From Henricia sp. BOLD:AAB3569 (lineage: Eukaryota; Echinodermata; Asteroidea; Spinulosida; Echinasteridae), in NCBI GenBank assembly GCA_037783545.1, contig JBBELK010000024.1, forward strand, positions 744,001 through 808,000: a DNA stretch of 64,000 nt. Reading direction: 5' to 3'. Positions within the stretch are counted from its first letter, which is position 1. Each line of letters starts with the position of its first letter. Made by a program: the position numbers and the translations under genes. The notes beneath the pieces were generated by a model that worked only from the letters and a program-made list of their open reading frames with translations, was not told the origin of the DNA and ran no database searches. Positions 23,128 through 57,800 of the stretch are shown piece after piece.

Positions 23128-23355
23128 AATAACATTGACATTTTTCTCCATTTGAATAAGCTCGCCTGCAGCATGTGCTAAAATGGTGTCCTTTAATAAA
23201 ACCACTAAAAGAGTTTGAATTAAATTGTAGAGATACATGTAGCGAAATATAAGCTAAACCTACAATATCAGAGACATTCGCTGCTTTACGATAGAAGAAA
23301 ATATGTTACAGGCCTTATGTTGTTCTTTTTTTTTCAATATGCCTTTGCTGTTCTC

Positions 23356-23710
23356 TTAAAGGAGCGAGACCACATCACATATTAAATGAGCCTCCCATTT
23401 TTTCCATGGGTGTTGAGATTTTGATACCATATCATGTGTCATATTTTTCTCATTACCATTCTGAAATTTCACTTTCTCAATCCGTATATTTCCGGGGATA
23501 TCGTCAAAAAACCACTGAAGTTAAGTCAACTAATTTATCCACCACATAATGCAGTGCAGTGATGACATCAACGTTTTTTGTTTCCATATCCAAATTGAAG
23601 ATTGCAAATTTCCTTTTCTTCCCATGGATAGTATTGTAAGGATGTATTTTATATGATTTTTAGGTTAGAACGAAAACCATTTTCTGGAAAAATCTGAACA
23701 TCTCCTTTAA
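23356..23710 (-). mobile_element. TTAA-flanked element, family A (copy 1 of duplication)
   Basis: TTAA at 23356-23359 and 23707-23710. The reverse strand carries the family body (TTTTCCAGAAAATGG, ACACCCATGGAAAAAATGGG). About 355 bp, non-coding. Confidence 0.85.
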
Positions 23711-23736
23711 GCTGCCATTTATTATTTTTGTTTACT

Positions 23737-24195
23737 GGGGCCTTTTTCCAAATCTCGGCTTCATCTCAGTCTCCGGCTCCGTCTCCATTCCGCCATCTTG
23801 AAGCCGCAAACTTCGGCTTGGCTTCAGGCTTAATTTTGAGGCTTCGTTTTGGCCCAAATAAGGCTCCAAAACGAAGTCAACTAAAGAGGTGACTTCGGCC
23901 GGCTTCGTGACGTCATGAACTGGAAAATCACGTGACAGCAACAAAAACTTTGTGAACTTTTGCAGGTTTGCTAAACTTTACCGCCGACAAAACTCGTCTG
24001 CTAGCGCTTAAAAAAAGCCGGTGAAAAAGAGTGGTAGGCTAGGCCCGACTAGTGTTCCAAACAGTTTTTGGTTTGGCTTCGCTAAAGTAAAGCCGGAGGC
24101 GTTTGGAGCCGGAGCCGCATGAAGCCGAAGCCTGGAGCCGCATGAAGCCGAAGCCTGGAGCCTGAAGACGGAGTCGAGATTTGGAAAAGGGCCCC
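23737..24195. mobile_element. 459-bp inverted-repeat element, family T (GGGGCC ends)
   Basis: Ends GGGGCCTTTTTCCAAATCTC and GAGATTTGGAAAAGGGCCCC. The interior is rich in GAAGCC and GGAGCC and includes a ~23-bp unit repeated twice at about 24110-24160. A stripped-down relative lies at 30998-31106. The small ORFs inside are composition artefacts. Confidence 0.85.
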
Positions 24196-27100
24196 ATATC
24201 TAATCAAATTTATATGATATCCTCTTCCTGGAATTAATTTACATAGAATATAAATGGAATGCAAACATCCTGAAATTATTCACCAGAAGCTCAAATATTT
24301 ACATTTTCCACAATGCCTACTTTAATATTCTGCTCCCACAAGTGAACAGACTATCTGGCACTTTATAGCACACAACACAGCTGTCATTATCTTGTCCTAT
24401 TAATGCTCAGGCAAGCAGAAATGATATGCAGAAGCAAGAAGTGGTAACAAACCTCATCATACTAAAGTGCATCGACATAAAAACCTGCTAGAATGCACTT
24501 TATTTTCCCAGGCAACTGTGAGCATGTCCCATCTAATGTGTGAAATGAACCATGCAAGCTTAAAGTGCCTAGACCCATGAGCATACTAACCCTGACACTA
24601 GTGGATATACTGGAATGTGTTCAGTAACCCATAAGTAATCAGACTAATAAGAAAGAACTATAACATATACATTCGAGGCATGGCTAGTGTCCCAAATAGT
24701 GAAATAGTGATTGGAACGGTGCCATTCACAATCAGCAGTTAATTTGATAGAACTGAGGGGACATAATTGAAAAGGGCTTCTGCATAAGGTCCATTTCATA
24801 TGCAGCTTTAAAGACATCCGATTACCTTGCTATGTTTTTCCTTATTACTGCCCCCAATGCAAGATAAAAGTGCAGGCGCCCATGGCTTTTAAAGGATAAA
24901 AAACATGCAAGGGGAACGCTAAAGCTATATCAAAAATTGAAAGCACCGCAATCGGTCTCAGTATGGTTTCTTCAAACCTTTGAGAGACAGTAATTTAACA
25001 GATGGATATTGATTAAATTATTAATTTTTTTTTTTAAACCAAGGATTCCTCTAAAGTGCCGGTGTCACTGACTTTTAAGTTCTTACGCCTGCTGAAATAT
25101 GTGATATGAGAAGATGAAAAAGAAGTGCTGTGCTTATGTGAGAAAAAAACATTTGATTCCATACAACATACTTTTTTTCTGAAAGTATTACTTTACCTAT
25201 AGTTACAAGTATAAAATGCATCATAAAAATATAATATTAAAATTCTACTGGATGTAATTTGGTTAGTGTATTCATTTACCCCAGTCAGCATAGGTTTTCC
25301 TCATCGAATAAGAAAACCCTTGATTAAACATTCTCCATTAGTTGCAGTGAAGGACAGGCATGCAATTGTGTCATTACAAAAAATGAAGAGGAAAAATCTC
25401 TAACTTTGTGCAGTGTTTTTTAAATTGTCAATGGGACAGGTGAAAAAACAAAAAAGAGGAAATCAAAGTTCTCTGGGTCAGACCTGGGTTGAATGTGTGC
25501 AAAAGGTCAATTTACTCAAAACTAATTATGACAAGTTGATGTCAAAAGAATCCCACCTACCTATAAATAGCTCCATTGTCTGGATACCGTACTACGTGTC
25601 TTGTCTGGATACTACATGGAATTCTTCAGAAACCAAGAAATCAAAATGTTCCTTGTCACAGTTGCAAACTCAATTCAGAAGGGATGAAGTTATACCTTGA
25701 CGAAGATAACAGGTTTACAAATATCACAGAGGCTCAGATGCAACTTGAAGTGGCGAGGTATTTACATGTTTGCATTCTCCTGTGATCTTGATAAGATATC
25801 TTTGATGTTTCAAAATGGCAGAAGTTCCTGTCAATCAAGATTGTACATGTAGTAACAGCTTGCTTGTGAAACATCGGCAAGAATTTTCATCAACATCCAT
25901 GTCAAAGATTATTAGGTTCTCAACTTGGGTATGCAGGAGAACTTTTAATCCTCAAAGTTGTGTGGTTGGAACAAGCTGAAATCATACCTCCTTGTGCAAG
26001 ATTCTTAAGAAGTCTGGAAAATGTCTTATAGTTTTACCATAACTAGCAGAAGTTGCTTGAAGACACTGCAGGCATCTACAAGTAGTTCAACTCTTGCTTC
26101 AGCCGAAAAGCACTCTCCAAATTATTTGTATTATGCTTCAAATACCTTTTGGGATAATATGACATAAAGTCCAAGTAGCGAGGGCAAGTGACAGAAGTAA
26201 AAACTATGTAGCAATGATTCACATACACCGGATGATCCATAATTTGAGTGTGAACTCTCCCTGTCGGCTATAAGACAAGATCACACCCTTGAAGAAAGAC
26301 TTGGGGCTTAAGTTATAACACTTAAAGACATGTAAATTAACACTACTTCCGAGAAACTGTAGCTTGCCAACAATGATCACGATCATCCATTTTGATTTTG
26401 TGTCCACAATTCCCCCCAAAAGTGTTACAGTTTCCAAAGATGGATTATGTAAAGTAATTTCTTTCAGCATATACATGTAGTTGTCATTTTTGCAACTGGC
26501 TATTTTTATTTTTACAAATTTGGCTATATTCCTGAGATATTAGCAAGAACAAAAACTATTTAGTGCTTATAAAAAGAGTGTGTGGCTGCACAAAAAGTTG
26601 GCAATTTTGTTTTTAAATTAGCTAACTTGAACCTTGATAATGGTAATTTAATTGCCTTTTATAATGGATTTTGGGAATTTAAGTTTTAAAAAATGAATGT
26701 AGAAATACACACAGAAAATGCACAAAATAAATGTTCCTATAACACTTGTGAATTAGCATTGATGTTCAAACAGGAAACAAACAAATAAGATACATTCAAG
26801 TACATGTAATCGCAAACACTCAAGGAAAAATGTGTTGATGCCAAACAGGGAAACATTCCCAAGAGAAGTATGTAGCAGGGAAATGTTCTCCAAAGGGAAA
26901 TATGTAATTACAACCTTTAATATGACTCCCTGGTGCCTATGCTGCACCAGCCGAGATAAGTGTTTAGATAGCAACACAGCTGTACAAAGCAGTGTCTAAA
27001 TTGATTAGATTCAGTTATGCTCTAATGCAAGATACATGTAGATGAAGTCTTGATGAGACACTCCTGGGTCCAAAACCAAACGCACGAATCTGGATGCTGG

Positions 27101-29072
27101 TACTTGATTGCTTGAGAGTCTATGAGGTTTATATGCAACTCCTTTTCCGATTGGTCCAATTGAGGCTATTGTTTAAGTCGTCTTGGCAAAATTTGCATAT
27201 CTCCATTTATCACACAAATGTATACATGGTAATTTGTGCTTCACCTGGAAATCATTCAACATTGATGTTCAACAAAATGGATCATGCCATATGGCCTGTC
27301 AATCTTGATATATTGTGAGGAACGATTCTCACACTAAAAATACACATGTTGTACAACACACTGCATGCAGTAAATTTCAGAGATGACAAGGTCCAACCAA
27401 CAAAAGCTGCGTGGGAGACTGTAGAAAAGTTGAAGGTACAAACTTCACTTCAAGAAATGTAGCAAGGCGCTGCAAGTTCCTTGCGGATGACCTTCTCCCA
27501 GTTAAAGAATTCAAATCCAATTTTTAGTTACAGAACAAGCAATTATGAGTGACCGGTAACTGTGAGGCGTATGACTTGCTGGGATGACTTGGTAGTACAA
27601 TCTGCAAGCTTTACTTGTCCAAAATAGTCAACATAAGATGATTTTACCAACACGATTAATGATTCTCTGTCCAGCAATGCTTTCTACAATTCAACTGATC
27701 AAAACTGCAATTGGCTAAGGGAGACCCAATATGCACTCAATCCAATCCTCATACAGGGCATGAAATCCCCCAAGAAACGAATGCGATAGATTAGCTGTCT
27801 GCACGTCTTCACAGTAAGCTATCACTAGTAGAATCTCCATAATGTACTTTGGTTTTCAATCTACTCCTTTGGGGTCAACTCTTTAATTTCATTTTCAGAG
27901 GACAGTGGCTGCTTCCTAGCATGGGAATCAAAAGAGTTGCCCCTTGGCATCGAGAGCAAAATTGTGGTGCATCTGATATGAAATGTCTTACAGATCTTCG
28001 GGTGATATCGTGTATGGTTCAATTCTGTCTCAGACGGTTGTCAAATACATAACCAGGGGCAGGTTGCATAACGGAAGTATGAATACAGGTCTAAGCAAAT
28101 TTGTTCATTTTTGAATTTTGTCAGAAATTTAGTAATTCCAAACTAAATTTGCAATAAAAATATACAAACAAAATATGATTTAAAAAGAAAAAACAAAATG
28201 AAAATGAAACATAAACAACAGAAATAAACCCCCAAAAAAAACTTCCTCATGCAACATAAACAATGTTTATTTTCATGCAAAAAGTGAAAAAAAAGGCCAC
28301 AAATGTAACTGGGTAAATATCAAAAAGATATCAAGTTGACCAATAATTATTTTGCAATTAATGCATTATCTACTTACAAGAATGCTGATTTGGTAACGGA
28401 TGATGCTCACTGCGTAATACGAAGTGAAAGTTCTCAAGATTGCAGGTAGTCTAATTTAGTGCTAAACAAAAATGATACTGTTATTGGTATTGGTTCAAAA
28501 CGCAAATAATACTCAGATATAGATCAGTAACGTGTATGAACACCTCTTGTGGTAAGGCTTACTGCACCAGCCTCTGTAAGAGCCGCTGAGGCAGGGTGCG
28601 CCACTCTGCCTGAGGTGCTCCCCAAGAACCCGCATTTATAGGGCTGTTTTTGAGATTTGTGGCAGGTTTAATCAGGATAAAACCCCCCAAAAAATGGGTT
28701 TTCTAGAAGCCCTATAGGATTTACCCAGAAACAGGAAATGTCACATTTCATTGCTGTGGGAATCACTTTGTTGAAACAGGTCCTCTTGCTATGGGCCTAG
28801 GGGAAATCACTGAAGCAGAACAGTCTTGAATGTTATTCTAAAGTGATTGGTTGATCGGTGCCTTGTTATCCACAAGTTCACTGTATTCAACAAACTTCTG
28901 TTCTGATCAAGAATTTATATTTTAAGAAAATGTGGGTTTTTTTTATTTTTAGAGTATAGTCTATTAGGCACCTTATAATCACCATAGAAATGAAACTAAA
29001 TGTACGAGGAGAGAAAAACATATCCTTCCCTATTTGGTTATAAATCCCACAAAAGTTTCTGTTCAACAATTT
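24196..29072. other. Non-coding, probable intron DNA (copy 1)
   Basis: Nearly 4.9 kb with only short chance ORFs. None resembles a known domain. A possible downstream exon of the minus-strand gene could hide here but I cannot identify one. Confidence 0.4.
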
Positions 29073-29197
29073 ACAAAAGTGTTCACTATGAAAGTGTTAA
29101 TTCAACACTTTAAATGCTGAATTCAACACTTTCAATTCAAAGTGACCAAACTAAAGTGTCTGATTTAACACTGTACGGTAGTGTTTTTTTTAGTGTA
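29073..29197. repeat. Cluster of alternating AAGTGTT / AACACTT boxes
   Basis: At least six AGTGTT or AACACT boxes in both orientations within 125 bp, able to form several hairpins. Possibly an eroded MITE. Confidence 0.6.
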
Positions 29198-29466
29198 TAC
29201 TAATTAAGCTAAAGAAAACAAAAATGATTGCTAACTAATAATATTTCTCAACTACCGGTAGTTATTTTATATATTCACAATTATAATTCAAATCTTGAGT
29301 TGTCATGAATACGTATAATAGGCAGTGAAAAATGCTGGGTTTGTCAATATTTTGCTTTAACATTTTGTTTACAATGCAGCAACCTAAGAGTTTCAACAAA
29401 CTGCAAATACAAATCTAGAAAATTTCAAAATTTAACATCAACATCAGAAACAGTACTGATAACTGA

Positions 29467-29882
29467 GTCTTTCCACAGTAAAGGGGGCATTTTGGCAACA
29501 CAGACCATTTTTTCCAGAAAATACCTTTGTCTGGTCTGAAAATAAAAGAAATAAGTTTCAGTTGTTTTGAAGAGATAACTTAGGCCCAAAAAGGGTTAAA
29601 AATAGTGTGACAACATGCCTTTCTAAAAACCCTGTGTACAAATTTCCAATATATGCTCATAACCGGGACGGCCTAAAATGTGTCCATCCCAGGTACAAAT
29701 GTAAATTGGAAATTTGTGCACAGGGTTTTTAGAAAGCATGTTGTCACACTATTTGTAACTCTTTTTTTGGCCGAAGTTATCTCTTCAGAACAACTTATTT
29801 CTTTTATTTTGAGACCAGACAAAGGTATTTCCTCGAAAATATGGTATTTGTTGCCAAAATGCCCCCTTTACTATGGAAAGAC
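29467..29882. mobile_element. 416-bp foldback element
   Basis: Arms of roughly 170-190 bp: GTCTTTCCACAGTAAAGGGG at the left mirrored by CCCCTTTACTATGGAAAGAC at the right, with inner blocks ACCTTTGTCTGGTCT and ACCCTGTG also paired. A short loop lies near 29660-29695. The short frame inside reads through one arm and is not a gene. Confidence 0.88.
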
Positions 29883-30840
29883 CCAACTACAATTGTATAA
29901 AAATGTACAAAATTCATGCATTAACTGATCTATTACCAAATTGTACTTTTAAGTCTTTCATCAAAGTCAAATAAAATCAGGTCCAAGTTAATTTTAAATT
30001 CCCAAAATAATCTAAATCTCCCATATTGTCTACATTTGAATAATACAACCTTCATTTCCTAAATCAATAGTAGCACCATTACTTATCAAACAGAGCTTTT
30101 CTCCCTACACTAAATGCGTTTTTGCACCACGCAAAGGGAATTCATGCTAAATGTACAGACGGCAGTTTCACTAGTGTTTTCTAAAACATTTTTGTCTTGG
30201 ATAAATATAATGAAGAATACAATGGTTACATTAAAATGATATAGAGAGTCAACTAAAAATATGTTTGCATAGATACCGTTATCAATACATGTATAATTAA
30301 ACCTAACAACCCTTTTCTTGTATTATAGAATTAAAAAAGTATGTTTCACTTAATGTAAAACTGAATACATGTCAATACCAAAAATATAAAATATAGTGCT
30401 ATAAGTGCATGTGGAATGCATCATTTCCACTTTACAGTAAACCTAAATAGCGCCCTCTTGTGCTAAAAACATGCAAACAACTTTTAGCCAATCCCTTTTA
30501 ACTTTCAAGTGTACAAGAATTACAACATTCCTTTTTTGGGTTAAAATATTGTAAATTTGTTACAATAGTAAACTAAATTATATTTGACAATCTTAAGATA
30601 CACATGTAAAAAACGAGGTTTTTTTTGTAAACATTAAGACAACACAAACACCCTTCACATAAGAGGTAAAAACTAAACCATAAAAGTGGTATGAAATGAA
30701 TGGAGTTGGTCTTGTGTACATCGAGTTGCTCCATAAAGAACATTTGTAAAATGGTGACGGTACTTTTGCTACACTCACATTTTACTTGTAAAAATTACTT
30801 ATTGAAGGACAATTTTAAAGTGCAATATATACTGAAAATA

Positions 30841-30935
30841 ATGATTGGTCCCTTGTTTTCTTAAGAGTTTTTTAATTCAGTGATTGGTCCACTTCTCATC
30901 ATGTGACCAAAGATAAACATTTTGATTGGTCCACA
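30841..30935. promoter_or_regulatory. Three TGATTGGTCC boxes (inverted CCAAT)
   Basis: TGATTGGTCC occurs three times at about 40-bp spacing. ATTGG is the reverse of the NF-Y/CCAAT box. Promoter function is only a possibility; no transcript start is evident. Confidence 0.3.
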
Positions 30936-30997
30936 ATTATACCCTGCAAATGAAGGGGCATTTAACATTAAGGCACCACCAAAAGTTTGTTGACCTA

Positions 30998-31106
30998 GGC
31001 CTTTTTCCAAATCTCGACTTGGGCTCAGGCTCTGGCTACGGCTCCATGTGGTTTACATGGAGCCGGAGCCGGAGCCTGAGCCCAAGTCGAGATTTGGAAA
31101 AAGGCC
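30998..31106. mobile_element. 109-bp hairpin, minimal member of family T
   Basis: GGCCTTTTTCCAAATCTCGA at the left is mirrored at the right. The arms continue through GACTTGGGCTCAGGCTC to a 7-base loop around GTTT, so almost the whole element folds on itself. The ends match those of 23737-24195. Confidence 0.9.
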
Positions 31107-31535
31107 CAAGATCATGATAAAATATAATGGCCTGGACATGCACATTGTATTTAAAAGATGAACTGCCAAGTTTTAATCGACAACGTGATGAAAAGCAAAA
31201 TTGATGTTTCAGCAAAAACTTCTCACGTTTCGAGAGAGAACTTTCACAGAAAAACAATTCGACCAGCAGATGCAAAGTTTTGATGACAGACACAAAGCAA
31301 ATATGCATATTGCCTGCATTCAAGATGGGTTTAATCTACAGTGCCCTTTATGTGACGTCACTGACACCATTTTCCATTGTGGCTATGTCCCTTGGGAAGC
31401 ACCTTAGTCTTATGAAAAAATTAGAACATTTTATCACGTTTTAGTTGTACAAACTACATGTGTATCCCATGGCAGCTTTTGTATGCCTACTACAGTATGA
31501 ATGATTAACGACAAAGATATACCCAAGGTACCTTG

Positions 31536-31894
31536 CAATTCGGGCGTTTCACGATAAGAGCATCACCAAGCGTTTCTGCCGGAGAGGGCATTTTAATGAC
31601 AGAGCGGTCCACATCGGTGTATTCGTTCACTGCACAAACATATCGGATTTTATTTGAAAACAAATACCCGATTTAGAGGTTGAAGGTTTTTTTAGGAAGC
31701 CTGGATTATTTAAACACGGTTAACATCATTTGCGAAGAAAAATGTTAAATCTATGCTCTTTTCTTGAGAATAAACAACATAATAATATGCTTTTTCACAC
31801 GTCTAGCAATGATCGTGTCGACCACGCGCACATCGAATGTAGCCTTTCTACGTCAAACGCTTGGTTGCACCTTTAATGTGAAACGCCCGAATTG
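31536..31894. mobile_element. 359-bp MITE with CAATTCGGGCGTTTCAC ends
   Basis: Perfect 17-bp terminal inverted repeats, with a second inner pair CCAAGCGTTT / AAACGCTTGG. No coding capacity. Confidence 0.88.
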
Positions 31895-32347
31895 TTTTTC
31901 CAAAAACATGTTTTTAACTTCTGTAGAACAAAATATATTTTAGAAAATCTATCTGGAAATATTGGTTTGGTCTTTTCGTATTTCAAGCTACAACTTTAGC
32001 GGGCAAAATTAAGTCATAAAGTCTGGTACATGTATTTCATTTTTAACAGGAAAACCTTTTTTAATTGTCTACATCTAAATTGATAGTTAAATTTTTACAT
32101 CCAAATAAAAGGTACTGTATTTAAAACTTTTAATCTAGTTCATTTGATTTCAGAAAAGAACGGGCTTTTTTTAGATGCTGACTGGGCCAGCCGAGAGTCG
32201 CTTAGACGTCAGTCGAATCAATCCAAGATAGGAGGTGTAGGATACCCGCAAAGGCACGGTTGGGTCTGTTCTCTGTATTGAGAGCACATAGGGGGAAGGT
32301 AAAATGCAATATGTTAATATCCTGTCACCAAATTAATTGTTTCACTT

Positions 32348-32490
32348 TTAAAGGAGCTTGTTAAGATTTTTCCAGAAAATGGATTTCGTTCTGACCTAAC
32401 AATAATGTAAAATACATGTACCTCCCCAAAATAATATGAGAAGAAAACAGAAATCAGTGAAGTGAAACATTCTTTAAACACTGCACTTCG
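32348..32490 (+). mobile_element. Family A fragment, left end only
   Basis: Starts TTAAAGGAGCTTG, then TTTTCCAGAAAATGGATTTC. Similarity to the other family A copies fades after about 140 bp. Confidence 0.65.
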
Positions 32491-32830
32491 GTATGGCATA
32501 ACTTCGCCAGATGGTCAGTATGCTATGGTGTGTAGAGGAATTTCTCGCTTTTTTTTAAAAATTGCTTGGTACATATTAGGGGTTAGCATTATATAGCAAT
32601 GCATACAGTATATTCACCAACTTTAATGTTAGCTACATGTATTGTCTGCATGTTTCCGAAGCATAAGTTTAATACATGTATGTATAAAAAGCAAGCAAAG
32701 CACTTGTGTTTTGATGTTACTGATTAGTTTTACAATGTGTGGATATACCCACATTACTTATAACTAATTTGATTGCACAATTTTTTTTTTGGCAAACTTT
32801 TGGTGGCACCTTTTAATGTCAAATGCATAT

Positions 32831-33080
32831 AAGGGTCTTTCTATAAATTAGGGGTCCAATGTTGGTGTCCCCCGTTACATTTTACATCTTGTTTTTGTAA
32901 ATTCAGGACATAATCTTTAAATACCTTCCATCTCAAAGAGTGAGTACATAAAGTACAATTCATACAAGATGGTTTAAAAGCCATTTTAATGATTTTTGTA
33001 CGAAAAATAACACATATCAGGTGTAACCGGGGACACTAAATGTCACACTTTTGGACCCCTAATTTATAGAAAGACCCATA
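32831..33080. mobile_element. MITE, GGGTC family, second locus
   Basis: Ends AAGGGTCTTTCTATAAATTA and its mirror, with inner TGTCCCCCGTTACA / GTGTAACCGGGGACA. Same architecture and length as 11589-11840, but clearly diverged. Confidence 0.85.
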
Positions 33081-33525
33081 AGTGCAGATTATGAATTATT
33101 AGTGCACTGTTAGCCTGTCAGTGCAGCGTGTTTCCCGTCACCACTTTACAAGATGAGCGATAAAGCAACTTATTCTACAAAGGTAACACAAAACACAAAC
33201 AAACACAAAAACACGAGACTCTTTCGAAGTTCACGCAGCGATAAAAAGGTAAACTTTTGTTTCACTTTTTCCAACTGCGACTTGAGATGTTATTATACTT
33301 AAAGATTATATTATCTAAACTCATGGAAAATAAGTATCGGAGAAATCTTGTTTACTCAGATCCCAAGTTAAAAGTTAGTTAAAAGTTAAGCCAAGATTTG
33401 TGTTAGTTAAATATGCTAAATTACATTACAATTCTTTTGAAGGGTTTTGGGTAGTCCAATGTTGACTTATCCACATTTAAAAAAAACATCTTTAATACCT
33501 AACACCACATTTTACCAAACTTGGG

Positions 33526-33615
33526 ATGAGAGAAAAATCGTAAGGGCCTTGTCGGGATTCGAACTCTAGACCTTTGACTCGCAGGACATGGCAAACTTAA
33601 ATTCTTTAAGTTTGC
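33526..33615 (-). mobile_element. tRNA-derived SINE fragment, family S, next to a short palindrome
   Basis: Minus-strand B box GAGTTCGAATCCCGAC and body AAGGCCCTTACGATTTTTC, as at 7095 and 9308. The head is interrupted by a palindrome at about 33588-33620 (CATGGCAAACTTAA / TTAAGTTTGCCATG). Confidence 0.7.
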
Positions 33616-34292
33616 CATGCCGAAATGAAATTCCATTTCCCCAGAATCTAAATTTAGTTACCATCTCTGTACAAGCTTAGCATAATTTCTCCAAATAATC
33701 TGAAAAATTTTGGATTAAAATAAGTACGAGCAAAGAAACACCCTCTGACATTTAGCGAAAAAAACCAGCTCCTCGTCAAAATACCAACCTAAGCTGGCGA
33801 TTTCTCCAGCTGTGCTGAATGGAGGGAACCAACTATATAAGCATATAACTCATGTGCCACTGGTGTTCTACATGTAGACCACAGCAGACCCGAGGAATTG
33901 AAAACCAGGATGTCTACAATTGAAATTCGCTTTAACATCAGTAGTCCTTGGCTGAGGAATGCCTAACATGGCATGTGGGATTATTAGGACATTAAACAGC
34001 AAAAATACTTTAATCATCTCAAGAATCTCAGCTCTGACTTAAAGTGGTCCTACTGTACTTCTACAAAAATGCTCGAAAGAAATTAATTTTGAATTGTATG
34101 TAAACTAGACATCATAAGTAAAATTGACTTCATTTTGACATGGAAACGTCCATCATTGCCTAAAAACTATATTTCATTTTAAAAAGGGAACTGACATTTT
34201 TTTTTAAATTTAAATTTCTAAAATTATACTCAAGTGGAAGTCAAACGATTTTTTTAATCAGAATGTTGAAATGCCAAAACCTGATACTAGCT

Positions 34293-35100
34293 TTAAAGGA
34301 GTTGTCCAGGTTTTTCCAGAAAATGGATTTTGTTCTAAACTAACAATCATATAAAATACCTCCCCAAAATACTATCCTGGGAAGAAAACAATCGTCAATT
34401 TGGATGTTAAAGCAAAAAGGTCGGTGTAATGCACTTGTCAATTGTAACCCGCGCCCTGGGGGACCCTGGCTATAGCGGGGCACTAGCGGGGACCTACCCA
34501 AGGGTTTCCAAGAAAAAGGCGCCCCGCTACCCTGGACATTACCCCGGGACTGACCCGAGACTTCCAAAGGGGTCGCCCCGCAAGCCGGGGCGATACCCAG
34601 GGATTTCCAAAAACAGATGCCCCGCCGGCCGGGGCATATGCAGGTACATCCACATTAAGCCCGGCGTTACAGGGTCTGGACTGTGCGGGGACTTCCAACT
34701 TATGCCCAGCGGTCAGGGGCGGGGACTTACCCATGGGTTCCAAGAAAACAGTGTCCCCGCCCCGTGGCACTTGACTAGAAACTTACCAGGGACTACCTGG
34801 GGGTTTCCAAATTTCAATATGGAAGTTCCCGGCTAAGTCCCCGCTAGTCCAGGGTCCCCCGGGGCGCGGGTTACAATTGACAAGTGCATAATCACTGCAC
34901 TGCTTTATGCAATCAGATAAGTTAGTTTGTAAAATATTGGTGTTTTTAAAAAAGATATATATCCTTTAACATATACAGATTGAGAGCGCAAAATTTCAGA
35001 ATGGTAATGAGAAAGATATGACAAATGATATGGTATAAAAATCTCGACACCCATGGGAAAAATGGGGGCTCAAAAATGTGATCTGGAAGTGCTCCTTTAT
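34293..35100 (+). mobile_element. Family A element interrupted by a GC-rich transposon
   Basis: Left half from TTTAAAGGAGTTGTCCAG and right half ending CTGGAAGTGCTCCTTTA match the uninterrupted copies at 12123 and 62237. The break is at GGTGTAA|TCACTGC, where 34430-34888 is inserted. Confidence 0.88.
34430..34888. mobile_element. 459-bp GC-rich inverted-repeat element with TAA target duplication
   Basis: Ends TGCACTTGTCAATTGTAACC and its mirror. Pairing extends some 40 bp into CCCGCGCCC and GGGGGACCCTGG. TAA flanks both sides (34427-34429, 34889-34891), and the related element at 12123 shows the empty site with a single TAA. The interior is a set of degenerate repeats around GGGGACTTACCCATGGGTTTCC. 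A 3-bp TAA duplication fits PIF/Harbinger-type MITEs (family knowledge). The 135-codon frame inside follows from GC-rich repeats and is not called as a gene. Confidence 0.88.
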
Positions 35101-35455
35101 GACATGCTGTCATGTATAGTACAGCTTTTGCCCTCTCTTTAAAAAAGGTGCACAGGGAATCTTTCACATAACCTATGAGTATCAATCACTGTACGGTAAA
35201 CACTTAGAGACATACTGTATATTTAAATGACCTAAAATCAACACTGACACCAGTGATGTAGATAATGACAAGTCTATTAGTCTATCAGTCTAGTCAAAAA
35301 TAATGCTTGGACACCTACCATAGAATGTCTTTGCTGCACGTTCCTTTTAGTTTATTTAATATTGTTAAGGAACTTATGATGCACTGACAGCTGTGGACTA
35401 TTTACAGCAAAATACATTTTATATAGATGATGTGCTCTTCGTTTATATCTAAACC

Positions 35456-40070: not shown

Positions 40071-40096
40071 GCTGCCATTTATTATTTTTGTTTACT

Positions 40097-45432: not shown

Positions 45433-45557
45433 ACAAAAGTGTTCACTATGAAAGTGTTAATTCAACACTTTAAATGCTGAATTCAACACTTTCAATTCAA
45501 AGTGACCAAACTAAAGTGTCTGATTTAACACTGTACGGTAGTGTTTTTTTTAGTGTA
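45433..45557. repeat. AAGTGTT / AACACTT box cluster (copy 2)
   Basis: Duplicate of 29073-29197. Confidence 0.6.
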
Positions 45558-45826: not shown

Positions 45827-46242
45827 GTCTTTCCACAGTAAAGGGGGCATTTTGGCAACACAGACCATTTTTTCCAGAAAATACCTTTGTCTGGTCTGAA
45901 AATAAAAGAAATAAGTTTCAGTTGTTTTGAAGAGATAACTTAGGCCCAAAAAGGGTTAAAAATAGTGTGACAACATGCCTTTCTAAAAACCCTGTGTACA
46001 AATTTCCAATATATGCTCATAACCGGGACGGCCTAAAATGTGTCCATCCCAGGTACAAATGTAAATTGGAAATTTGTGCACAGGGTTTTTAGAAAGCATG
46101 TTGTCACACTATTTGTAACTCTTTTTTTGGCCGAAGTTATCTCTTCAGAACAACTTATTTCTTTTATTTTGAGACCAGACAAAGGTATTTCCTCGAAAAT
46201 ATGGTATTTGTTGCCAAAATGCCCCCTTTACTATGGAAAGAC
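45827..46242. mobile_element. 416-bp foldback element (copy 2)
   Basis: Duplicate of 29467-29882. Confidence 0.88.
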
Positions 46243-47200
46243 CCAACTACAATTGTATAAAAATGTACAAAATTCATGCATTAACTGATCTATTACCAAA
46301 TTGTACTTTTAAGTCTTTCATCAAAGTCAAATAAAATCAGGTCCAAGTTAATTTTAAATTCCCAAAATAATCTAAATCTCCCATATTGTCTACATTTGAA
46401 TAATACAACCTTCATTTCCTAAATCAATAGTAGCACCATTACTTATCAAACAGAGCTTTTCTCCCTACACTAAATGCGTTTTTGCACCACGCAAAGGGAA
46501 TTCATGCTAAATGTACAGACGGCAGTTTCACTAGTGTTTTCTAAAACATTTTTGTCTTGGATAAATATAATGAAGAATACAATGGTTACATTAAAATGAT
46601 ATAGAGAGTCAACTAAAAATATGTTTGCATAGATACCGTTATCAATACATGTATAATTAAACCTAACAACCCTTTTCTTGTATTATAGAATTAAAAAAGT
46701 ATGTTTCACTTAATGTAAAACTGAATACATGTCAATACCAAAAATATAAAATATAGTGCTATAAGTGCATGTGGAATGCATCATTTCCACTTTACAGTAA
46801 ACCTAAATAGCGCCCTCTTGTGCTAAAAACATGCAAACAACTTTTAGCCAATCCCTTTTAACTTTCAAGTGTACAAGAATTACAACATTCCTTTTTTGGG
46901 TTAAAATATTGTAAATTTGTTACAATAGTAAACTAAATTATATTTGACAATCTTAAGATACACATGTAAAAAACGAGGTTTTTTTTGTAAACATTAAGAC
47001 AACACAAACACCCTTCACATAAGAGGTAAAAACTAAACCATAAAAGTGGTATGAAATGAATGGAGTTGGTCTTGTGTACATCGAGTTGCTCCATAAAGAA
47101 CATTTGTAAAATGGTGACGGTACTTTTGCTACACTCACATTTTACTTGTAAAAATTACTTATTGAAGGACAATTTTAAAGTGCAATATATACTGAAAATA

Positions 47201-47295
47201 ATGATTGGTCCCTTGTTTTCTTAAGAGTTTTTTAATTCAGTGATTGGTCCACTTCTCATCATGTGACCAAAGATAAACATTTTGATTGGTCCACA
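47201..47295. promoter_or_regulatory. Three TGATTGGTCC boxes (copy 2)
   Basis: Duplicate of 30841-30935. Confidence 0.3.
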
Positions 47296-47357
47296 ATTAT
47301 ACCCTGCAAATGAAGGGGCATTTAACATTAAGGCACCACCAAAAGTTTGTTGACCTA

Positions 47358-47466
47358 GGCCTTTTTCCAAATCTCGACTTGGGCTCAGGCTCTGGCTACG
47401 GCTCCATGTGGTTTACATGGAGCCGGAGCCGGAGCCTGAGCCCAAGTCGAGATTTGGAAAAAGGCC
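47358..47466. mobile_element. 109-bp hairpin, family T (copy 2)
   Basis: Duplicate of 30998-31106. Confidence 0.9.
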
Positions 47467-47895
47467 CAAGATCATGATAAAATATAATGGCCTGGACATG
47501 CACATTGTATTTAAAAGATGAACTGCCAAGTTTTAATCGACAACGTGATGAAAAGCAAAATTGATGTTTCAGCAAAAACTTCTCACGTTTCGAGAGAGAA
47601 CTTTCACAGAAAAACAATTCGACCAGCAGATGCAAAGTTTTGATGACAGACACAAAGCAAATATGCATATTGCCTGCATTCAAGATGGGTTTAATCTACA
47701 GTGCCCTTTATGTGACGTCACTGACACCATTTTCCATTGTGGCTATGTCCCTTGGGAAGCACCTTAGTCTTATGAAAAAATTAGAACATTTTATCACGTT
47801 TTAGTTGTACAAACTACATGTGTATCCCATGGCAGCTTTTGTATGCCTACTACAGTATGAATGATTAACGACAAAGATATACCCAAGGTACCTTG

Positions 47896-48254
47896 CAATT
47901 CGGGCGTTTCACGATAAGAGCATCACCAAGCGTTTCTGCCGGAGAGGGCATTTTAATGACAGAGCGGTCCACATCGGTGTATTCGTTCACTGCACAAACA
48001 TATCGGATTTTATTTGAAAACAAATACCCGATTTAGAGGTTGAAGGTTTTTTTAGGAAGCCTGGATTATTTAAACACGGTTAACATCATTTGCGAAGAAA
48101 AATGTTAAATCTATGCTCTTTTCTTGAGAATAAACAACATAATAATATGCTTTTTCACACGTCTAGCAATGATCGTGTCGACCACGCGCACATCGAATGT
48201 AGCCTTTCTACGTCAAACGCTTGGTTGCACCTTTAATGTGAAACGCCCGAATTG
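47896..48254. mobile_element. 359-bp MITE (copy 2)
   Basis: Duplicate of 31536-31894. Confidence 0.88.
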
Positions 48255-48707
48255 TTTTTCCAAAAACATGTTTTTAACTTCTGTAGAACAAAATATATTT
48301 TAGAAAATCTATCTGGAAATATTGGTTTGGTCTTTTCGTATTTCAAGCTACAACTTTAGCGGGCAAAATTAAGTCATAAAGTCTGGTACATGTATTTCAT
48401 TTTTAACAGGAAAACCTTTTTTAATTGTCTACATCTAAATTGATAGTTAAATTTTTACATCCAAATAAAAGGTACTGTATTTAAAACTTTTAATCTAGTT
48501 CATTTGATTTCAGAAAAGAACGGGCTTTTTTTAGATGCTGACTGGGCCAGCCGAGAGTCGCTTAGACGTCAGTCGAATCAATCCAAGATAGGAGGTGTAG
48601 GATACCCGCAAAGGCACGGTTGGGTCTGTTCTCTGTATTGAGAGCACATAGGGGGAAGGTAAAATGCAATATGTTAATATCCTGTCACCAAATTAATTGT
48701 TTCACTT

Positions 48708-48850
48708 TTAAAGGAGCTTGTTAAGATTTTTCCAGAAAATGGATTTCGTTCTGACCTAACAATAATGTAAAATACATGTACCTCCCCAAAATAATATGAG
48801 AAGAAAACAGAAATCAGTGAAGTGAAACATTCTTTAAACACTGCACTTCG
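48708..48850 (+). mobile_element. Family A fragment (copy 2)
   Basis: Duplicate of 32348-32490. Confidence 0.65.
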
Positions 48851-49190
48851 GTATGGCATAACTTCGCCAGATGGTCAGTATGCTATGGTGTGTAGAGGAA
48901 TTTCTCGCTTTTTTTTAAAAATTGCTTGGTACATATTAGGGGTTAGCATTATATAGCAATGCATACAGTATATTCACCAACTTTAATGTTAGCTACATGT
49001 ATTGTCTGCATGTTTCCGAAGCATAAGTTTAATACATGTATGTATAAAAAGCAAGCAAAGCACTTGTGTTTTGATGTTACTGATTAGTTTTACAATGTGT
49101 GGATATACCCACATTACTTATAACTAATTTGATTGCACAATTTTTTTTTTGGCAAACTTTTGGTGGCACCTTTTAATGTCAAATGCATAT

Positions 49191-49440
49191 AAGGGTCTTT
49201 CTATAAATTAGGGGTCCAATGTTGGTGTCCCCCGTTACATTTTACATCTTGTTTTTGTAAATTCAGGACATAATCTTTAAATACCTTCCATCTCAAAGAG
49301 TGAGTACATAAAGTACAATTCATACAAGATGGTTTAAAAGCCATTTTAATGATTTTTGTACGAAAAATAACACATATCAGGTGTAACCGGGGACACTAAA
49401 TGTCACACTTTTGGACCCCTAATTTATAGAAAGACCCATA
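49191..49440. mobile_element. MITE, GGGTC family (copy 2)
   Basis: Duplicate of 32831-33080. Confidence 0.85.
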
Positions 49441-49885
49441 AGTGCAGATTATGAATTATTAGTGCACTGTTAGCCTGTCAGTGCAGCGTGTTTCCCGTCA
49501 CCACTTTACAAGATGAGCGATAAAGCAACTTATTCTACAAAGGTAACACAAAACACAAACAAACACAAAAACACGAGACTCTTTCGAAGTTCACGCAGCG
49601 ATAAAAAGGTAAACTTTTGTTTCACTTTTTCCAACTGCGACTTGAGATGTTATTATACTTAAAGATTATATTATCTAAACTCATGGAAAATAAGTATCGG
49701 AGAAATCTTGTTTACTCAGATCCCAAGTTAAAAGTTAGTTAAAAGTTAAGCCAAGATTTGTGTTAGTTAAATATGCTAAATTACATTACAATTCTTTTGA
49801 AGGGTTTTGGGTAGTCCAATGTTGACTTATCCACATTTAAAAAAAACATCTTTAATACCTAACACCACATTTTACCAAACTTGGG

Positions 49886-49975
49886 ATGAGAGAAAAATCG
49901 TAAGGGCCTTGTCGGGATTCGAACTCTAGACCTTTGACTCGCAGGACATGGCAAACTTAAATTCTTTAAGTTTGC
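49886..49975 (-). mobile_element. SINE fragment, family S (copy 2)
   Basis: Duplicate of 33526-33615. Confidence 0.7.
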
Positions 49976-50652
49976 CATGCCGAAATGAAATTCCATTTCC
50001 CCAGAATCTAAATTTAGTTACCATCTCTGTACAAGCTTAGCATAATTTCTCCAAATAATCTGAAAAATTTTGGATTAAAATAAGTACGAGCAAAGAAACA
50101 CCCTCTGACATTTAGCGAAAAAAACCAGCTCCTCGTCAAAATACCAACCTAAGCTGGCGATTTCTCCAGCTGTGCTGAATGGAGGGAACCAACTATATAA
50201 GCATATAACTCATGTGCCACTGGTGTTCTACATGTAGACCACAGCAGACCCGAGGAATTGAAAACCAGGATGTCTACAATTGAAATTCGCTTTAACATCA
50301 GTAGTCCTTGGCTGAGGAATGCCTAACATGGCATGTGGGATTATTAGGACATTAAACAGCAAAAATACTTTAATCATCTCAAGAATCTCAGCTCTGACTT
50401 AAAGTGGTCCTACTGTACTTCTACAAAAATGCTCGAAAGAAATTAATTTTGAATTGTATGTAAACTAGACATCATAAGTAAAATTGACTTCATTTTGACA
50501 TGGAAACGTCCATCATTGCCTAAAAACTATATTTCATTTTAAAAAGGGAACTGACATTTTTTTTTAAATTTAAATTTCTAAAATTATACTCAAGTGGAAG
50601 TCAAACGATTTTTTTAATCAGAATGTTGAAATGCCAAAACCTGATACTAGCT

Positions 50653-51460
50653 TTAAAGGAGTTGTCCAGGTTTTTCCAGAAAATGGATTTTGTTCTAAAC
50701 TAACAATCATATAAAATACCTCCCCAAAATACTATCCTGGGAAGAAAACAATCGTCAATTTGGATGTTAAAGCAAAAAGGTCGGTGTAATGCACTTGTCA
50801 ATTGTAACCCGCGCCCTGGGGGACCCTGGCTATAGCGGGGCACTAGCGGGGACCTACCCAAGGGTTTCCAAGAAAAAGGCGCCCCGCTACCCTGGACATT
50901 ACCCCGGGACTGACCCGAGACTTCCAAAGGGGTCGCCCCGCAAGCCGGGGCGATACCCAGGGATTTCCAAAAACAGATGCCCCGCCGGCCGGGGCATATG
51001 CAGGTACATCCACATTAAGCCCGGCGTTACAGGGTCTGGACTGTGCGGGGACTTCCAACTTATGCCCAGCGGTCAGGGGCGGGGACTTACCCATGGGTTC
51101 CAAGAAAACAGTGTCCCCGCCCCGTGGCACTTGACTAGAAACTTACCAGGGACTACCTGGGGGTTTCCAAATTTCAATATGGAAGTTCCCGGCTAAGTCC
51201 CCGCTAGTCCAGGGTCCCCCGGGGCGCGGGTTACAATTGACAAGTGCATAATCACTGCACTGCTTTATGCAATCAGATAAGTTAGTTTGTAAAATATTGG
51301 TGTTTTTAAAAAAGATATATATCCTTTAACATATACAGATTGAGAGCGCAAAATTTCAGAATGGTAATGAGAAAGATATGACAAATGATATGGTATAAAA
51401 ATCTCGACACCCATGGGAAAAATGGGGGCTCAAAAATGTGATCTGGAAGTGCTCCTTTAT
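50653..51460 (+). mobile_element. Interrupted family A element (copy 2)
   Basis: Duplicate of 34293-35100. Confidence 0.88.
50790..51248. mobile_element. GC-rich TAA-flanked element (copy 2)
   Basis: Duplicate of 34430-34888. Confidence 0.88.
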
Positions 51461-51815
51461 GACATGCTGTCATGTATAGTACAGCTTTTGCCCTCTCTTT
51501 AAAAAAGGTGCACAGGGAATCTTTCACATAACCTATGAGTATCAATCACTGTACGGTAAACACTTAGAGACATACTGTATATTTAAATGACCTAAAATCA
51601 ACACTGACACCAGTGATGTAGATAATGACAAGTCTATTAGTCTATCAGTCTAGTCAAAAATAATGCTTGGACACCTACCATAGAATGTCTTTGCTGCACG
51701 TTCCTTTTAGTTTATTTAATATTGTTAAGGAACTTATGATGCACTGACAGCTGTGGACTATTTACAGCAAAATACATTTTATATAGATGATGTGCTCTTC
51801 GTTTATATCTAAACC

Positions 51816-51992
51816 GCCCTCTGTTGAAAACTGGTCGTCGTTATGCGCACGCATCCTGTTTTGCATAAATTTGGTTTGGTAATTCAAAGACGATTTGACA
51901 TGCGAACCTCATTCCTAAACCAAATTTATGCAAAACACGATGCGTGCACATAAATGCCGGGCATGTTTTGGTTTGCTGTGACGTCAGAGGGC
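51816..51992. mobile_element. 177-bp MITE (copy 2)
   Basis: Duplicate of 35456-35632. Confidence 0.85.
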
Positions 51993-52394
51993 ACATCGTC
52001 TATTGGATGACAGGAAGCCTTGAGAGTGCATGTCATATAGTTTGGACTACCCGGTACATCAGATGCCAGCCACAGGTTGTTACAAGAGAGACATTTAAAA
52101 ATCTACACTTACCTTGTCAAACTTTAGTTCTAAGCACACCCCCTATAACCCAAATACCAAGTCACATAAAACTATGTATTTCTCCTTATAGGCGTATGTA
52201 TTACTCCATCTACATGATCTAGATCCATCATTTACGTTAAGTAATTTTTTGATTGTCAAGATCCACAACCAAAGTTATCCAATACATGTAGCAGCCATCC
52301 TTTAATACTGAACACAAAATTTGAGAGAGAATGAGTCAAGCTATGAGTACATGGCTATCAATTGAGGGTGTGTTTGCAGAAACTTCAATTTCAC

Positions 52395-52910
52395 TAAATG
52401 CCTTTTTACACTACAACCTCTCAACCCGGGGCGAACTCCGAGACCGTTTCAACCCTGCATTCAACCCTGCATCGTTTCACACTTGTTTCGGCCAAACCGG
52501 GTTTATCTCGCCCAGGGGCGAGTTCAACCCCGAGTTGAACGGGGAGGATTCACACTTGTGCAATTCAAACCCTGGGGCAAGTGGTATAATTGAGCATCGC
52601 TCGCATGCGTAAGTGCTGTCCCCCGCCGGAAATAGTTAACATTGTTCGAATTCATCATCGCTTTTCTGCCCTGTTTTTCTTTTTTGGTGATTGTGCCATT
52701 TGAAAAAGTGAATGACGGACAATGTAAAAAATAGCCTCTCATAACGGGAGCTCTGATCTTCACACATACAACAAGCATGATGTTCATGTGTACACCGGGT
52801 TGAAACCAATCTCGGGGTTGGCACGGGGTTGAATTTTCTCAAGTGTGAAACATCGGGTTTTTTTTAACCCCGCGCCAACCCAAAAATTTTTTAAGTGTGA
52901 AAAGGCCTTA
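52395..52910. mobile_element. TTTCACACTT-box element (copy 2)
   Basis: Duplicate of 36035-36550 with one substitution seen at 52816. Confidence 0.7.
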
Positions 52911-53156
52911 AGTCGAGTATGGAAGATACACAAAGTAGTGTGGGGCGGTTTTTACCACATACATGATGATGTAGAAAGCAACAGTTTAATTTACACAGAA
53001 ATCCAACATGACCAAATTTCTACTTGGCAAGAAGTGAAGAGAAACAATACACAAGTAATACACACATGTACAAAGTTAACAGAAATTGGTCTGGGTAATA
53101 GATGGATAGAAACAAACATAAATCCTGCAAGTTAAAGTTAGCTGCATGGTGGTTAA

Positions 53157-53582
53157 GGCCTGTTTAAAGTCAGCCTGACTTTGTTAAATAAAAGCCGGTA
53201 TTTTCCAAAATGGCGGGTTCATGTCACTCAGGCGCTAGGTGTGAACCGAACGTTGGATTGAAAAAGGCAGACCAGACCCGGGTCTGATTTTCCGTTTTAA
53301 AATTCACCTTGGGTAGTATTGAACCTCGCAATTGCTGGGTTGAATGCTACAATTGTCAAGGTCATATGTGGTGTAAATGCTACCTAAATAGATTCCTTAG
53401 GGCAGACCTTTTGTAATGCAAAACAGCCCACGCATGCACTGTGTGCACATTCAGCAGTAACCTTTGCGGTTGTTAAGGTGGACTGAACCCGAATCGAGAC
53501 ATTCTATAAACACGGCAAATTTCCAGATTCGCAGTCGCAATAAAAATGCCGGATCTTTGCCATTTTCAATGTAAACACAGCG
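53157..53582 (-). mobile_element. Repeat family H (copy 2)
   Basis: Duplicate of 36797-37222. Confidence 0.7.
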
Positions 53583-53809
53583 TTGGATGCATGTGAATTA
53601 AGACAATATTACATGAGTGGACCCATCACCTATAAAGGTTAATATCGGAATAAAATACCAAAGAAGTGAGAGAGTGTGTATTCCACAGCTTGATGTTATC
53701 AAGAAAACAAGTCCAATATGGGATTTTTACCAAATGATATAGGTATAATGTGCTTCCAAAACTGTAAAAATCCCACGTGGATTTTAGAGAATGATTGCAG
53801 AAGCGCAAA

Positions 53810-54835
53810 GATTGTGCAAAGACTCGTGTGAGCTGTGTGCGGTGCAAGAGTGTCACACAAACCAATACTATTCACTTACTCACTTCTTCTATAATGTTCT
53901 CAAATGGGTCAAGGTTTGCCGCACTTGTAACTACAATCACAAACAACAATGAACAGAGATAAGATATTACAAAATACAAAAACTTCCTGTGTCATCACAT
54001 GAACGCCAAATGCATTTTTACAGGATGGAGATTACAATAGTCTGTTGCTCCTGGTCTTGGTCTGGGTGTTTTTGCAATCCTCCTACATGTACATGTATAG
54101 ACTTTTCATTTTTTAATGTAATGCTTTGAGATGCTTGGCGGCGGCAAACATAATGGTCCCATGTGACCAGTTCGCTATGTTTGCGTCACTCTTATACCCA
54201 GCACGATGTGGCATAGGGACTCCCCCCTAACGCCCCTATACCTCAACACACTCTTCCCTTTTGTTAATGCACCAACACCCCCACCCCCCTAAAAACTGAA
54301 AGAAATTCCTTTGGAATTCCTTGGATGTTTGAGACACAATGGGGGAACAATGGTAGGGGGAGTACCCTCTGCCACATATCGAGCTGCATATGGTCACTCT
54401 TGAGCTAAAGTGTGCACGCTCAAAATGATGCAAAACAATAGTGGACTGATCACATGGGACTGTTATATGTTTGCTGCCACCGAGCATTTCCAAAAGTCTC
54501 CAATTGAAGTGCATGGCCCAAAACACTCGTCCCCATATAAAAATGGCAGTGCCATTCAGTAACTAAATTTCTACATGTACCTCGAAATACATGTAGGTAA
54601 ATTTTTCTGACCATCCTACAAACATTGTTCTTGCATTTGACATCAGCACCATTTGATGAAACTTAGGTCCTGTCTTTCATCAATGTTATTGCAGTGTGTG
54701 AAACACACCAGTAGGACCTAATTTTATTTCACAAAAATGGTTTTGGATGTCAAATGCATCGAGAGAATGAAGAGAAAAATATATGACCACAGAATTGCTA
54801 GAAAATACCCCAGTTGATAAAGTTCAATAACTCAC
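53810..54835. other. Diverged intron segment downstream of the intact exon (copy 2)
   Basis: Begins with an 8-bp deletion relative to 37450. On the minus strand the intron starts with GTGAGT at 54835. Confidence 0.9.
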
Positions 54836-57800
54836 CTTGTTCGTCATCGAAGCTTGCCAAGGGAACTGGAGCAGGGCTGTTACGATTGGCTTCTACACTG
54901 CCACCTCTTGGTCCATCTACAGCCTGACTCGCCTTCCCTTTCTTCACGACACTCTCTTCAGGTTTGGTTTTCAATCGACTGCTGCCCGGGTTGGCGACAC
55001 TCTGCACGAGGGACTCCATGGAAGAACTCAACTGGCTCGGGCTGAGGTCCTCCTCCGAAGCCAAGTCCATTCTGTGATCATTTGAAATATGATGGTACTC
55101 TGACGACATTTCCTCGAAAGGTTGAGAGAGCTGGAAGCTGTCAATAGTGGAAACTGACTCTATACTAACTCGGCTGCCTGGAGTAAGCTTAGTATCAACG
55201 GCAGAATTATTTGTGACAGATTGTTGAACTTTGATGTTCTTTGAGTCTTTGATGGCTCTCTCGGTTTTACCCTTGTCACCCTGCTTGGACTCTGGTTGGG
55301 TGAGCCCTGTTATTGCCTCAAAACGACTTTCAGGCTTACGAGGTACAGCCGACTTATTTGAATCAGATCTAGTCGTAATTTTGTGAGACAAGTCAGGACT
55401 GCTGTCGGAGCTGTACCCGAGATTGTCTGAAGATCTTGGCCTACGGTATAGATGAGAAGTAAGATGCTGTGTGGATGCAGTGTCTTCGTCTGAGCTGCTC
55501 TCGTCTCGAGGTGAATGACGTGGGTCATTGATTTTACCAGGAAGATTGAGACTTGTAGGCTTTGTGAGTTTGCCAGAACTCCCAAGGGTGTGATAGGAAG
55601 GAACGTCCTGCTTCTTCCTTGCTTCTGATGCAGGCATTTCGCTTGCAACAGCTTTACTTTTCAAAGCCAAGTCAGATTTAGCTCTTTCTCTTCGAGCTCT
55701 TCGTTTCGTACGTTGAGAAACTGCAAATTCCTTCAGGTCTCTGAGACGCTTCTGCAAAGCTGGCGGAAGCTCAGAAATCCGTTTCTCAAAAGGTTTGTAA
55801 TTTTTAAGGAACAAATCATCGGCTTCCTTATCCAGGACAGAATACATATGCTCCAGCTCAGACAGAGCGTCTTCGAAGTCGGCGCTGACTCTGTTGTCCT
55901 TGAGTTGCCGCCCTGGAGGTGATGGGTAACCACTGCTTCCGCTGCTTTGACTTTTTGGTTTACCTCGCAAACGCTTCAAGACCTCCACCCATTCCAGGGG
56001 TACCTCCTGTCTTCCACGACGTACTGTTGGTAGCGGCTCCGAATCGGGAGATTTAAGTTTAGTTGGAGAGGAAGGAACCATTCCTGTTTTAGGAGTGGAT
56101 TTTGGTTTCTCTTGTTCCACTAATGACGTATTTGATTCCTTTTGGTTGCTCCGATTTTCATGTCTTGTGCTGTGTATCTTTGATTTAGTGGGAGAGGACT
56201 CATTGCTGTCAACAGATGGGGATGACAATGCTTTATCCTTTCTCACATTGCCGCCAATATAATTTCTTGCCACTGTGGATTTGGTCTCAAACAGATGGTT
56301 TTCAGATGTATGTTTGAAGGTTTCATGTTTCTCCAACCATTCAGCAGGTGCTGCACATTTACTATGAGGCTCAGAATCAAATTTGAATTTGCTTGGAGAA
56401 GTTGGGAGTTTGTCAATAATAGGTGTGCGTTTCAGTCTGTCTTGCTCACGCTGTTCCTTATTACGGCCCTTGCTGTGATAGTGAGTTGTGGGAATTTGGG
56501 CAAATTCTGACGTCTTGGCTTGAGGGGGAGATGCTGCTACAGTGCTTCTGACGTGGGCTTCAATAAGAGGCTCTTCTTTTGGATGGTTCTGTTTAGCTTG
56601 TGGATCACTGTACAAAGATTCGGAATTAGAGTCAGGAGATGACAAAACTCCTTTGTGCCTGAAAATAGGTTCCCCCGTCTTCGTGAGTTGAGGCTGAAAT
56701 AATTGGGGACTTCCGACATAACTGTCGATGGAAACTGGCTCAATGATTCTGGTATCATGATCACTTTCCTCACTAGCTTGCCTCATCATTCTCATAAACA
56801 AAGCAGCACCACGGGAAACTCCCTTCTTCCTGAGCTCTTCAAGATCATCTGTGGATTTACTCTGAATGTTTTGGGAGAGTTCCTCGCTCTTAAGAACCCT
56901 GTCTCTGTTATCCAACCTTGTCAAGCTTTTACTCCTAGGTTTGGTGTTGCAGTCTCCTTCAAGACTTTGTTCCCTCTGCTGAGCTCGAGCACGATGTTTC
57001 AGCCGGTCGAAACGCGATTGCCTTTCTGCAGTTGCAGAAGAGGTTTGGTCAGCACTCGGATCACTTTTGTGGACCTGGTTTTCTCGGAAGGGTGTTACAG
57101 GCGGACTGGATGAATTCAACTGATTATCTTTTTCATAACATGCAAACGTATTGTGCTGGCGCTCGAGGGTAGAATCCTTCGAAGCATAGCTGTTGGGTAT
57201 TTTGTCTGGAGATTCTGATTGGTAGGCAAATATTGGTGTTTGTTTCCTGGATTCCATGCCCCAATACGCTTCCCCACCATCCACGGCTGGCTCCAATCCT
57301 ATGCGATCTGCCTCAACCATCGTTGCGGTGTACCTTTTAGAAGAGGCTCTGATGCGCCAACCATTGCCGAATGACTTGTCATCATTTAGTGCAGGCTTTG
57401 AAGTAGAATCCAGATCAGGTGACTGCTTTCTTGGGAAGTCATAATGGCTTATCTGAGAGGAATATTCTGGAGAAGACACCTCACCAGCTGTATACTGCTG
57501 CCACTCGACTCCACTCAAGTCAGATTTGGTCTTTTGGGGTGATCTATCTGACACTGAGCCTTGCTGCCAACCTCCACTGCTTGAAGGATGGATACTGGTA
57601 GGAGAAAACTGGAATCTGGAGCTATGGCTGTTCCACTCAGGGTCGGAGCTTTCTTGGGAGGAAGAGCGGAGCAGTTCTCTACGTGCAGAAGACTGCCTTG
57701 GCTGCACAGATCGTTTTCTGTCTGCTGATGAGGAAGAGTATAAAACAGGTGATGGTCTGCTCTCACTCAAACGATCCCCCGAAGATCGTCGTTCAAATGA

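Follow-up and report, generated by a model that had tools for sequence, protein, structure and literature searches.

A unit of some 16 kb occurs twice in succession within one gene of the window (the whole stretch of DNA analysed here, 64,000 bases), and the question that this locus raises is whether the gene has undergone a real recent change in copy number or whether one of the two copies was created during assembly. The sequence-only reading that first pointed out the repeat put forward these same alternatives, and they are the proper pair to be weighed: an assembly error of a known type, or an ordinary tandem duplication within a gene, each of them well described.

Geometry of the repeat

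BLASTN comparison of the window with itself (E 1e-10) returned a single large direct repeat, in which 23216-39578 corresponds to 39576-55922, head to tail. The two copies are as follows:

23216..39575, no strand: left copy of the unit, 16,360 bp (self-alignment, 99.43%)
39576..55919, no strand: right copy (16,344 bp), which runs on into the remainder of a predicted coding exon (self-alignment)

When copy was compared with copy, BLASTN gave 99.43% identity over 16,378 columns, with 47 mismatches and 11 gap openings. MAFFT alignment of 23216-39575 with 39576-55922 found 49 substitutions together with 10 indels of at most 11 bp; an eleventh gap event is merely the shared TGA at the end of the right copy. 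A match of 16 kb at 99.4% is far above chance, and not one of the 64,000 bases of the window is an N. Both alignments agree with the coordinates and the same-orientation tandem arrangement given in the sequence-only reading. Its statement that every nested transposon recurs in the second copy is also borne out: because no indel exceeds 11 bp, no interspersed element lies in just one copy, and the dispersed repeats of the unit are present in both. Its warning that any feature annotated inside the repeat will be counted twice stands.

A predicted coding exon cut by the repeat

The right end of the unit falls within a minus-strand open frame of 1,624 codons (59672-54798). The splice-like signals in this frame point to a long coding exon, the end of which is repeated in the left unit:

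54836..59552, minus strand: predicted coding exon, 4,717 nt, acceptor TTTTTCAG/GG, donor CAAG/GTGAGT, open over 1,572 codons
38492..39575, minus strand: truncated copy of the exon within the left unit, comprising its last 1,084 nt, with an open frame and the donor but without the native acceptor

In its sequence context the acceptor of the 4,717-nt exon reads TTTTTATTTTGTAATTTTTCAG/GG, with the first exon base at 59552 and the last, at the donor, at 54836. One end of the duplication falls within this exon, so that in the left unit the start of the right unit stands where the remainder of the exon should be; the intact exon with its predicted splice sites is kept on the right side. Judging from the donor, 23216-38491 would be intron. 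The earlier placement of the repeat in a gene intron is therefore correct only in part, as the unit also holds 1,084 nt of the predicted coding exon and its right breakpoint lies inside that exon.

A Pfam scan covering 11 frames (4 + 7), from which further exons of the gene may have escaped, left the 1,624-aa frame unmatched at E 0.1; the truncated frame had two hits, both under the curated cut-offs (E 0.011 and 0.032). No PDB sequence matched the exon protein at E 0.1. Comparison of the truncated frame with viral contigs gave 14 pattern matches, none of them confirmed as a relative; no RNA family was found at cut-off, and no tRNA. The layout of the gene, together with the repeats, suggests animal DNA.

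A step in divergence between the copies

The differences between the copies divide the unit into two unequal parts, a long near-identical core and a short divergent tail:

23216..37879, no strand: near-identical core, left copy, 2 substitutions in 14,656 aligned bases and one 8-bp indel
37880..39575, no strand: divergent tail, left copy, 47 substitutions in 1,673 aligned bases and 9 indels
54232..55919, no strand: divergent tail, right copy, counterpart of 37880-39575 by alignment

The tail thus holds 47 of the 49 substitutions and nine of the 10 indels. A single changepoint placed at 37880 raised the log-likelihood by 99.5, whereas none of 200 random placements of the 49 differences gave a gain above 9.8; this step rules out divergence spread evenly between the copies. 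The description of the repeat as recent accordingly suits its first 14.65 kb but not its last 1.7 kb, which has diverged to the level of distinct alleles.

Over 23216-37452 the cores align without a gap and with 2 mismatches, both of them A/G changes, and the homopolymers of 7 or more bases in this interval are identical between the copies in 20 cases out of 20. The single core indel (8 bp) lies at 37453, and the other nine lie between 37919 and 38447. These core differences are unlike read errors, so the two cores should derive from two near-identical molecules. The substitutions in the tail are split between intron (30/589, or 5.1%) and exon (17/1,084), with the caveat that four substitutions and one indel of the tail fall in a C run and may depend on the alignment, and that two of the tail indels are a single A. 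Allele-like difference (5.1% in the intron, dN/dS about 0.1) is seen in the 1.7-kb tail and not in the 14.65-kb core.

Coding constraint between the two tails

The exon portions of the tails differ at 17 sites in 17 codons, 13 of the changes being silent and 4 replacements, and no indel occurs in the 1,084 nt; the corresponding estimates are dN 0.0048 and dS 0.0555 (NG86) or dN 0.0053 and dS 0.0419 (YN00). Free drift of both copies would predict 11.9 replacements, compared with the 4 that are seen (P = 5e-5; binomial 1e-4). For drift of the left copy alone the replacement count is not decisive (P = 0.068 when the sampling of silent changes is allowed for), and a cruder Poisson version gives P = 7e-4. 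At the rate of the intron, which had nine indels in 589 aligned bases, 8.3 indels would be expected in the exon and none is seen (P = 2.5e-4), an expectation that may be inflated by the C run.

Since 13 of the 17 changes are silent and the exon carries no indel, the tails look like two functional alleles, and we infer that most of their divergence arose between working alleles and not after duplication in place. The two units seem to end in different alleles, and the cores seem to represent one haplotype or two near-identical ones. The divergence in the tail intron, 5.1%, is near the heterozygosity of some marine animals, of which amphioxus, reported at 3.2-4.2% (PMC12862219), is an example. 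Taken together, the divergence step and the coding constraint on the tail suggest that the sequence changes haplotype, something that the overall identity of 99.4% masks.

The junction

The two copies meet without a gap, as determined by alignment and comparison of the breakpoints:

39573..39578, no strand: gapless junction between the copies

The bases TGA at 39576-39578 are common to 23216-23218 and 55920-55922, a microhomology of 3 bp, and no bases have been inserted. Because TGA is present at 23216, at the junction and at 55920, the precise join is fixed only to within 3 bp. Among 100,000 random breakpoint pairs, at least 3 shared bases were found in 5.6% and at least 2 in 16.5%.

The evidence lends no support to NAHR between repeats at the breakpoints, as only 3 bp are common at the join and 24 of 100 positions are alike around it. 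Comparison of 2 kb on each side of both sites gave 8 hits with a best E of 0.78, none of them exceeding 16 bp at 94%. The three 151-bp stretches at the sites, each searched within itself and not compared with one another, contain no repeats bar one 10-nt self-overlapping palindrome, and the DNA folding of 120 nt around each site was not better than that of shuffles (z -0.49, 0.38 and 0.46). There is no sign of a transposon carrying the unit, the right end of which lies inside an exon and the left end between dispersed repeats. The junction 30-mer is absent from the viral contigs.

Other sequence elements in the window

The most over-represented octamer, in a ranking that excluded simple repeats and words with under 12 occurrences, is the palindromic TACATGTA, with 39 occurrences against 1.06 expected under a first-order model (window minus left copy). 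A model built from its own 7-mers gives 33.5 expected, which says only that the sub-words are enriched together. The full window contains 53 sites, about one per 1.2 kb (for example 2740, 8431 and 23234), with one in the 4.7-kb exon; the printed flanks look unrelated, the exceptions being the sites doubled with the copies and two pairs of overlapping sites, of which one pair is itself doubled. The sites at 54572 and 54588 lie in the right tail and are absent at the aligned place of the left tail. A literature search for TACATGTA as a whole word gave matches that, by their titles, all concern Phytophthora.

Each copy of the unit also contains a 422-bp imperfect palindrome (29464-29885 and 45824-46245; 84%), presumably a foldback or MITE-type element. 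To the left of the unit, 20186-20832 is a near-perfect inverted repeat with 273-bp arms at 97.8% and a spacer of about 100 bp, overlapping a 96-bp tandem pair at 20475-20665. The plus-strand open frame of 532 aa at 3-1601, cut by the start of the window, is probably the end of a retrotransposon; its first 111 residues matched the integrase core just under the curated cut-offs (rve, E 2.3e-7; rve_3, E 5.9e-5), and the frame includes a 21-bp in-frame repeat at 1224-1342. To its right are 107-bp direct repeats, 99% identical and 1.5 kb apart (2184-2290 and 3718-3824).

Origin of the repeat

The explanation that we favour, at a probability of roughly 0.55, is a false tandem duplication produced during assembly, at a fork where near-identical haplotypes become divergent. 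The sequenced individual would carry one copy of the unit on each homologue, the true copy number being one; the homologues would be near-identical across the 14.65-kb core and about 5% apart at neutral sites to its right, and the point at which they split, at about 37.88 kb, would appear as a fork in the assembly graph. One piece would run through the core into the tail of one allele and end within 1.7 kb of the fork; a second would restart at the start of the core and continue through the tail of the other allele to the remainder of the gene; and the two would then have been joined with their overlap unnoticed. At 16 kb the unit is of a length that long reads reach, as has been described for overlaps remaining where contigs branch.

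A false duplication is favoured by the form of the divergence, which is a step and not a slope and has its breakpoint at 37880, 1.7 kb before the end of the left copy, by the resemblance of the tails to two functional alleles, and by a divergence in the tail intron near the heterozygosity of some marine animals. Errors of this kind are reported to account for 15.9, 3.7 and 6.3% of three older assemblies, and for 2.3, 0.5 and 0.3% of the newer versions of the same assemblies (PMC9516828). The repeat is like the false heterotype and homotype duplications described in such reports (PMC8081667; PMC9516828) in that near-identical copies are adjacent, partly with allele-level differences, and in that part of an exon is duplicated over a length in the long-read range; it is unlike them in that there is no gap between the copies and 3 bp of microhomology lie at the join. 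A gap is characteristic of the false duplications published there but is not strictly required (PMC8081667; PMC9516828), and its absence here counts against an assembly slip. So does the sharing of at least 3 bases at the join, which is as uncommon among random pairs as noted above and fits end joining, and so do core differences that do not resemble read errors. Finally, cores alike to 0.014% would be uncommon where homologues differ by 5% (the rate ratio is about 0.3%), although an inbred individual would ease this near-identity.

A serious contender, which we hold to be somewhat short of an even chance, is a real young intragenic tandem duplication followed by a crossover between its right copy and another allele. 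A break repaired by end joining, or a template switch, would first have linked the exonic site to one lying 16.3 kb further along the gene, the two sharing 3 bp of microhomology, so that one chromosome came to carry two identical copies. A single ordinary crossover with a homologue that lacked the duplication, close to where the last 1.7 kb of the right copy begins, would then have replaced the tail of that copy and everything beyond it by the other allele. The gene would survive with a truncated exon copy inside an intron, either skipped or spliced in frame. Such a history accounts for the gapless junction with its 3-bp microhomology and no inserted bases, yields an identical core and a divergent tail from one crossover and without gene conversion, and leaves the intact exon and its splice sites on the right. 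In Drosophila, 41% of 644 CNV breakpoints are reported as simple ends with microhomology of 2 bp or more, in a set made up mostly of deletions, with two tandem duplications among 50 insertions (PMC4056370); the figure expected by chance here is 16.5%. Segregating intragenic tandem duplications with microhomology junctions, such as those described in Drosophila (PMC4056370) and at PAFAH1B1 (PMC4628255), likewise consist of a head-to-tail unit within one gene, with few shared bases at the junction and no long repeats common to the breakpoints. The copies here differ from those described in these sources in being unequal, with an identical core and a tail divergent at the allele level, and so require a later exchange between homologues.

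Against this history, the crossover must fall in the last tenth of the unit, and both the near-long-read size and the mixture of two alleles fit an assembly slip as well. Head-to-tail copies and a defined breakpoint junction are present, and an assembly error also gives these. For the age implied by the core (2/14,656), the expected unrecombined tract is 0.7, 2.2 or 7.3 kb at three assumed mutation rates, all of them shorter than 14.65 kb; much the same arithmetic holds for a real duplication, and it was therefore counted for neither side. The greater weight given to the false duplication (0.55) than to the real one is a judgement and not a calculation.

A possible older duplication and a predicted splice acceptor at the junction

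The junction also places the sequence CTACAATTTAATTCACCTCCAG before the truncated exon, and thereby creates an acceptor-like site from which a new exon is predicted:

38492..39568, minus strand: predicted junction-spliced piece, acceptor-like CACCTCCAG/GG at the junction, 359 codons (1,077 nt), frame-compatible with the donor of the main exon

On a crude ad hoc scale (pyrimidine content, the base at -3, G at +1 and a penalty for a nearby AG) the acceptor of the main exon scores 17 and this site 15, a value that 2.5% of the 3,583 minus-strand AGs reach. Splicing that joined 54836 to 39568, if it occurs, is predicted to keep the frame and to repeat 359 residues. The junction might therefore belong to a real, segregating partial-exon duplication that made its own acceptor, the protein of some animals repeating a 359-residue segment in frame and the new exon being under selection; we consider this very improbable, and it depends on a crude splice score and a frame match with a one-in-three chance.

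The same site enters into a further account, to which we likewise attach very little credence: an old real tandem duplication whose 14.65-kb core recently became identical again by gene conversion, whose 1.7-kb tails are older, and whose left exon piece was kept by selection through the junction acceptor. The acceptor-like site and the 359-codon piece in frame with the donor (again at one chance in three) are in its favour, and the replacement count alone does not reject drift of the left piece only (P = 0.068). One or more conversions would, however, have to cover nearly the whole core and yet spare the tail, and free drift of the left piece would predict about 8.3 indels in the exon, where none is seen (P = 2.5e-4, subject to the C run).

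Implications

If the favoured assembly slip is the true explanation, there was no biological duplication at all; 16 kb of the assembly and any gene models that use the truncated exon copy would be wrong, and counts of repeats and variants would be inflated here. If the repeat is real, it would be a young intragenic duplication with breakpoints defined at the level of bases. And if the junction does supply its own acceptor, the gene would have been caught in the act of internal lengthening.
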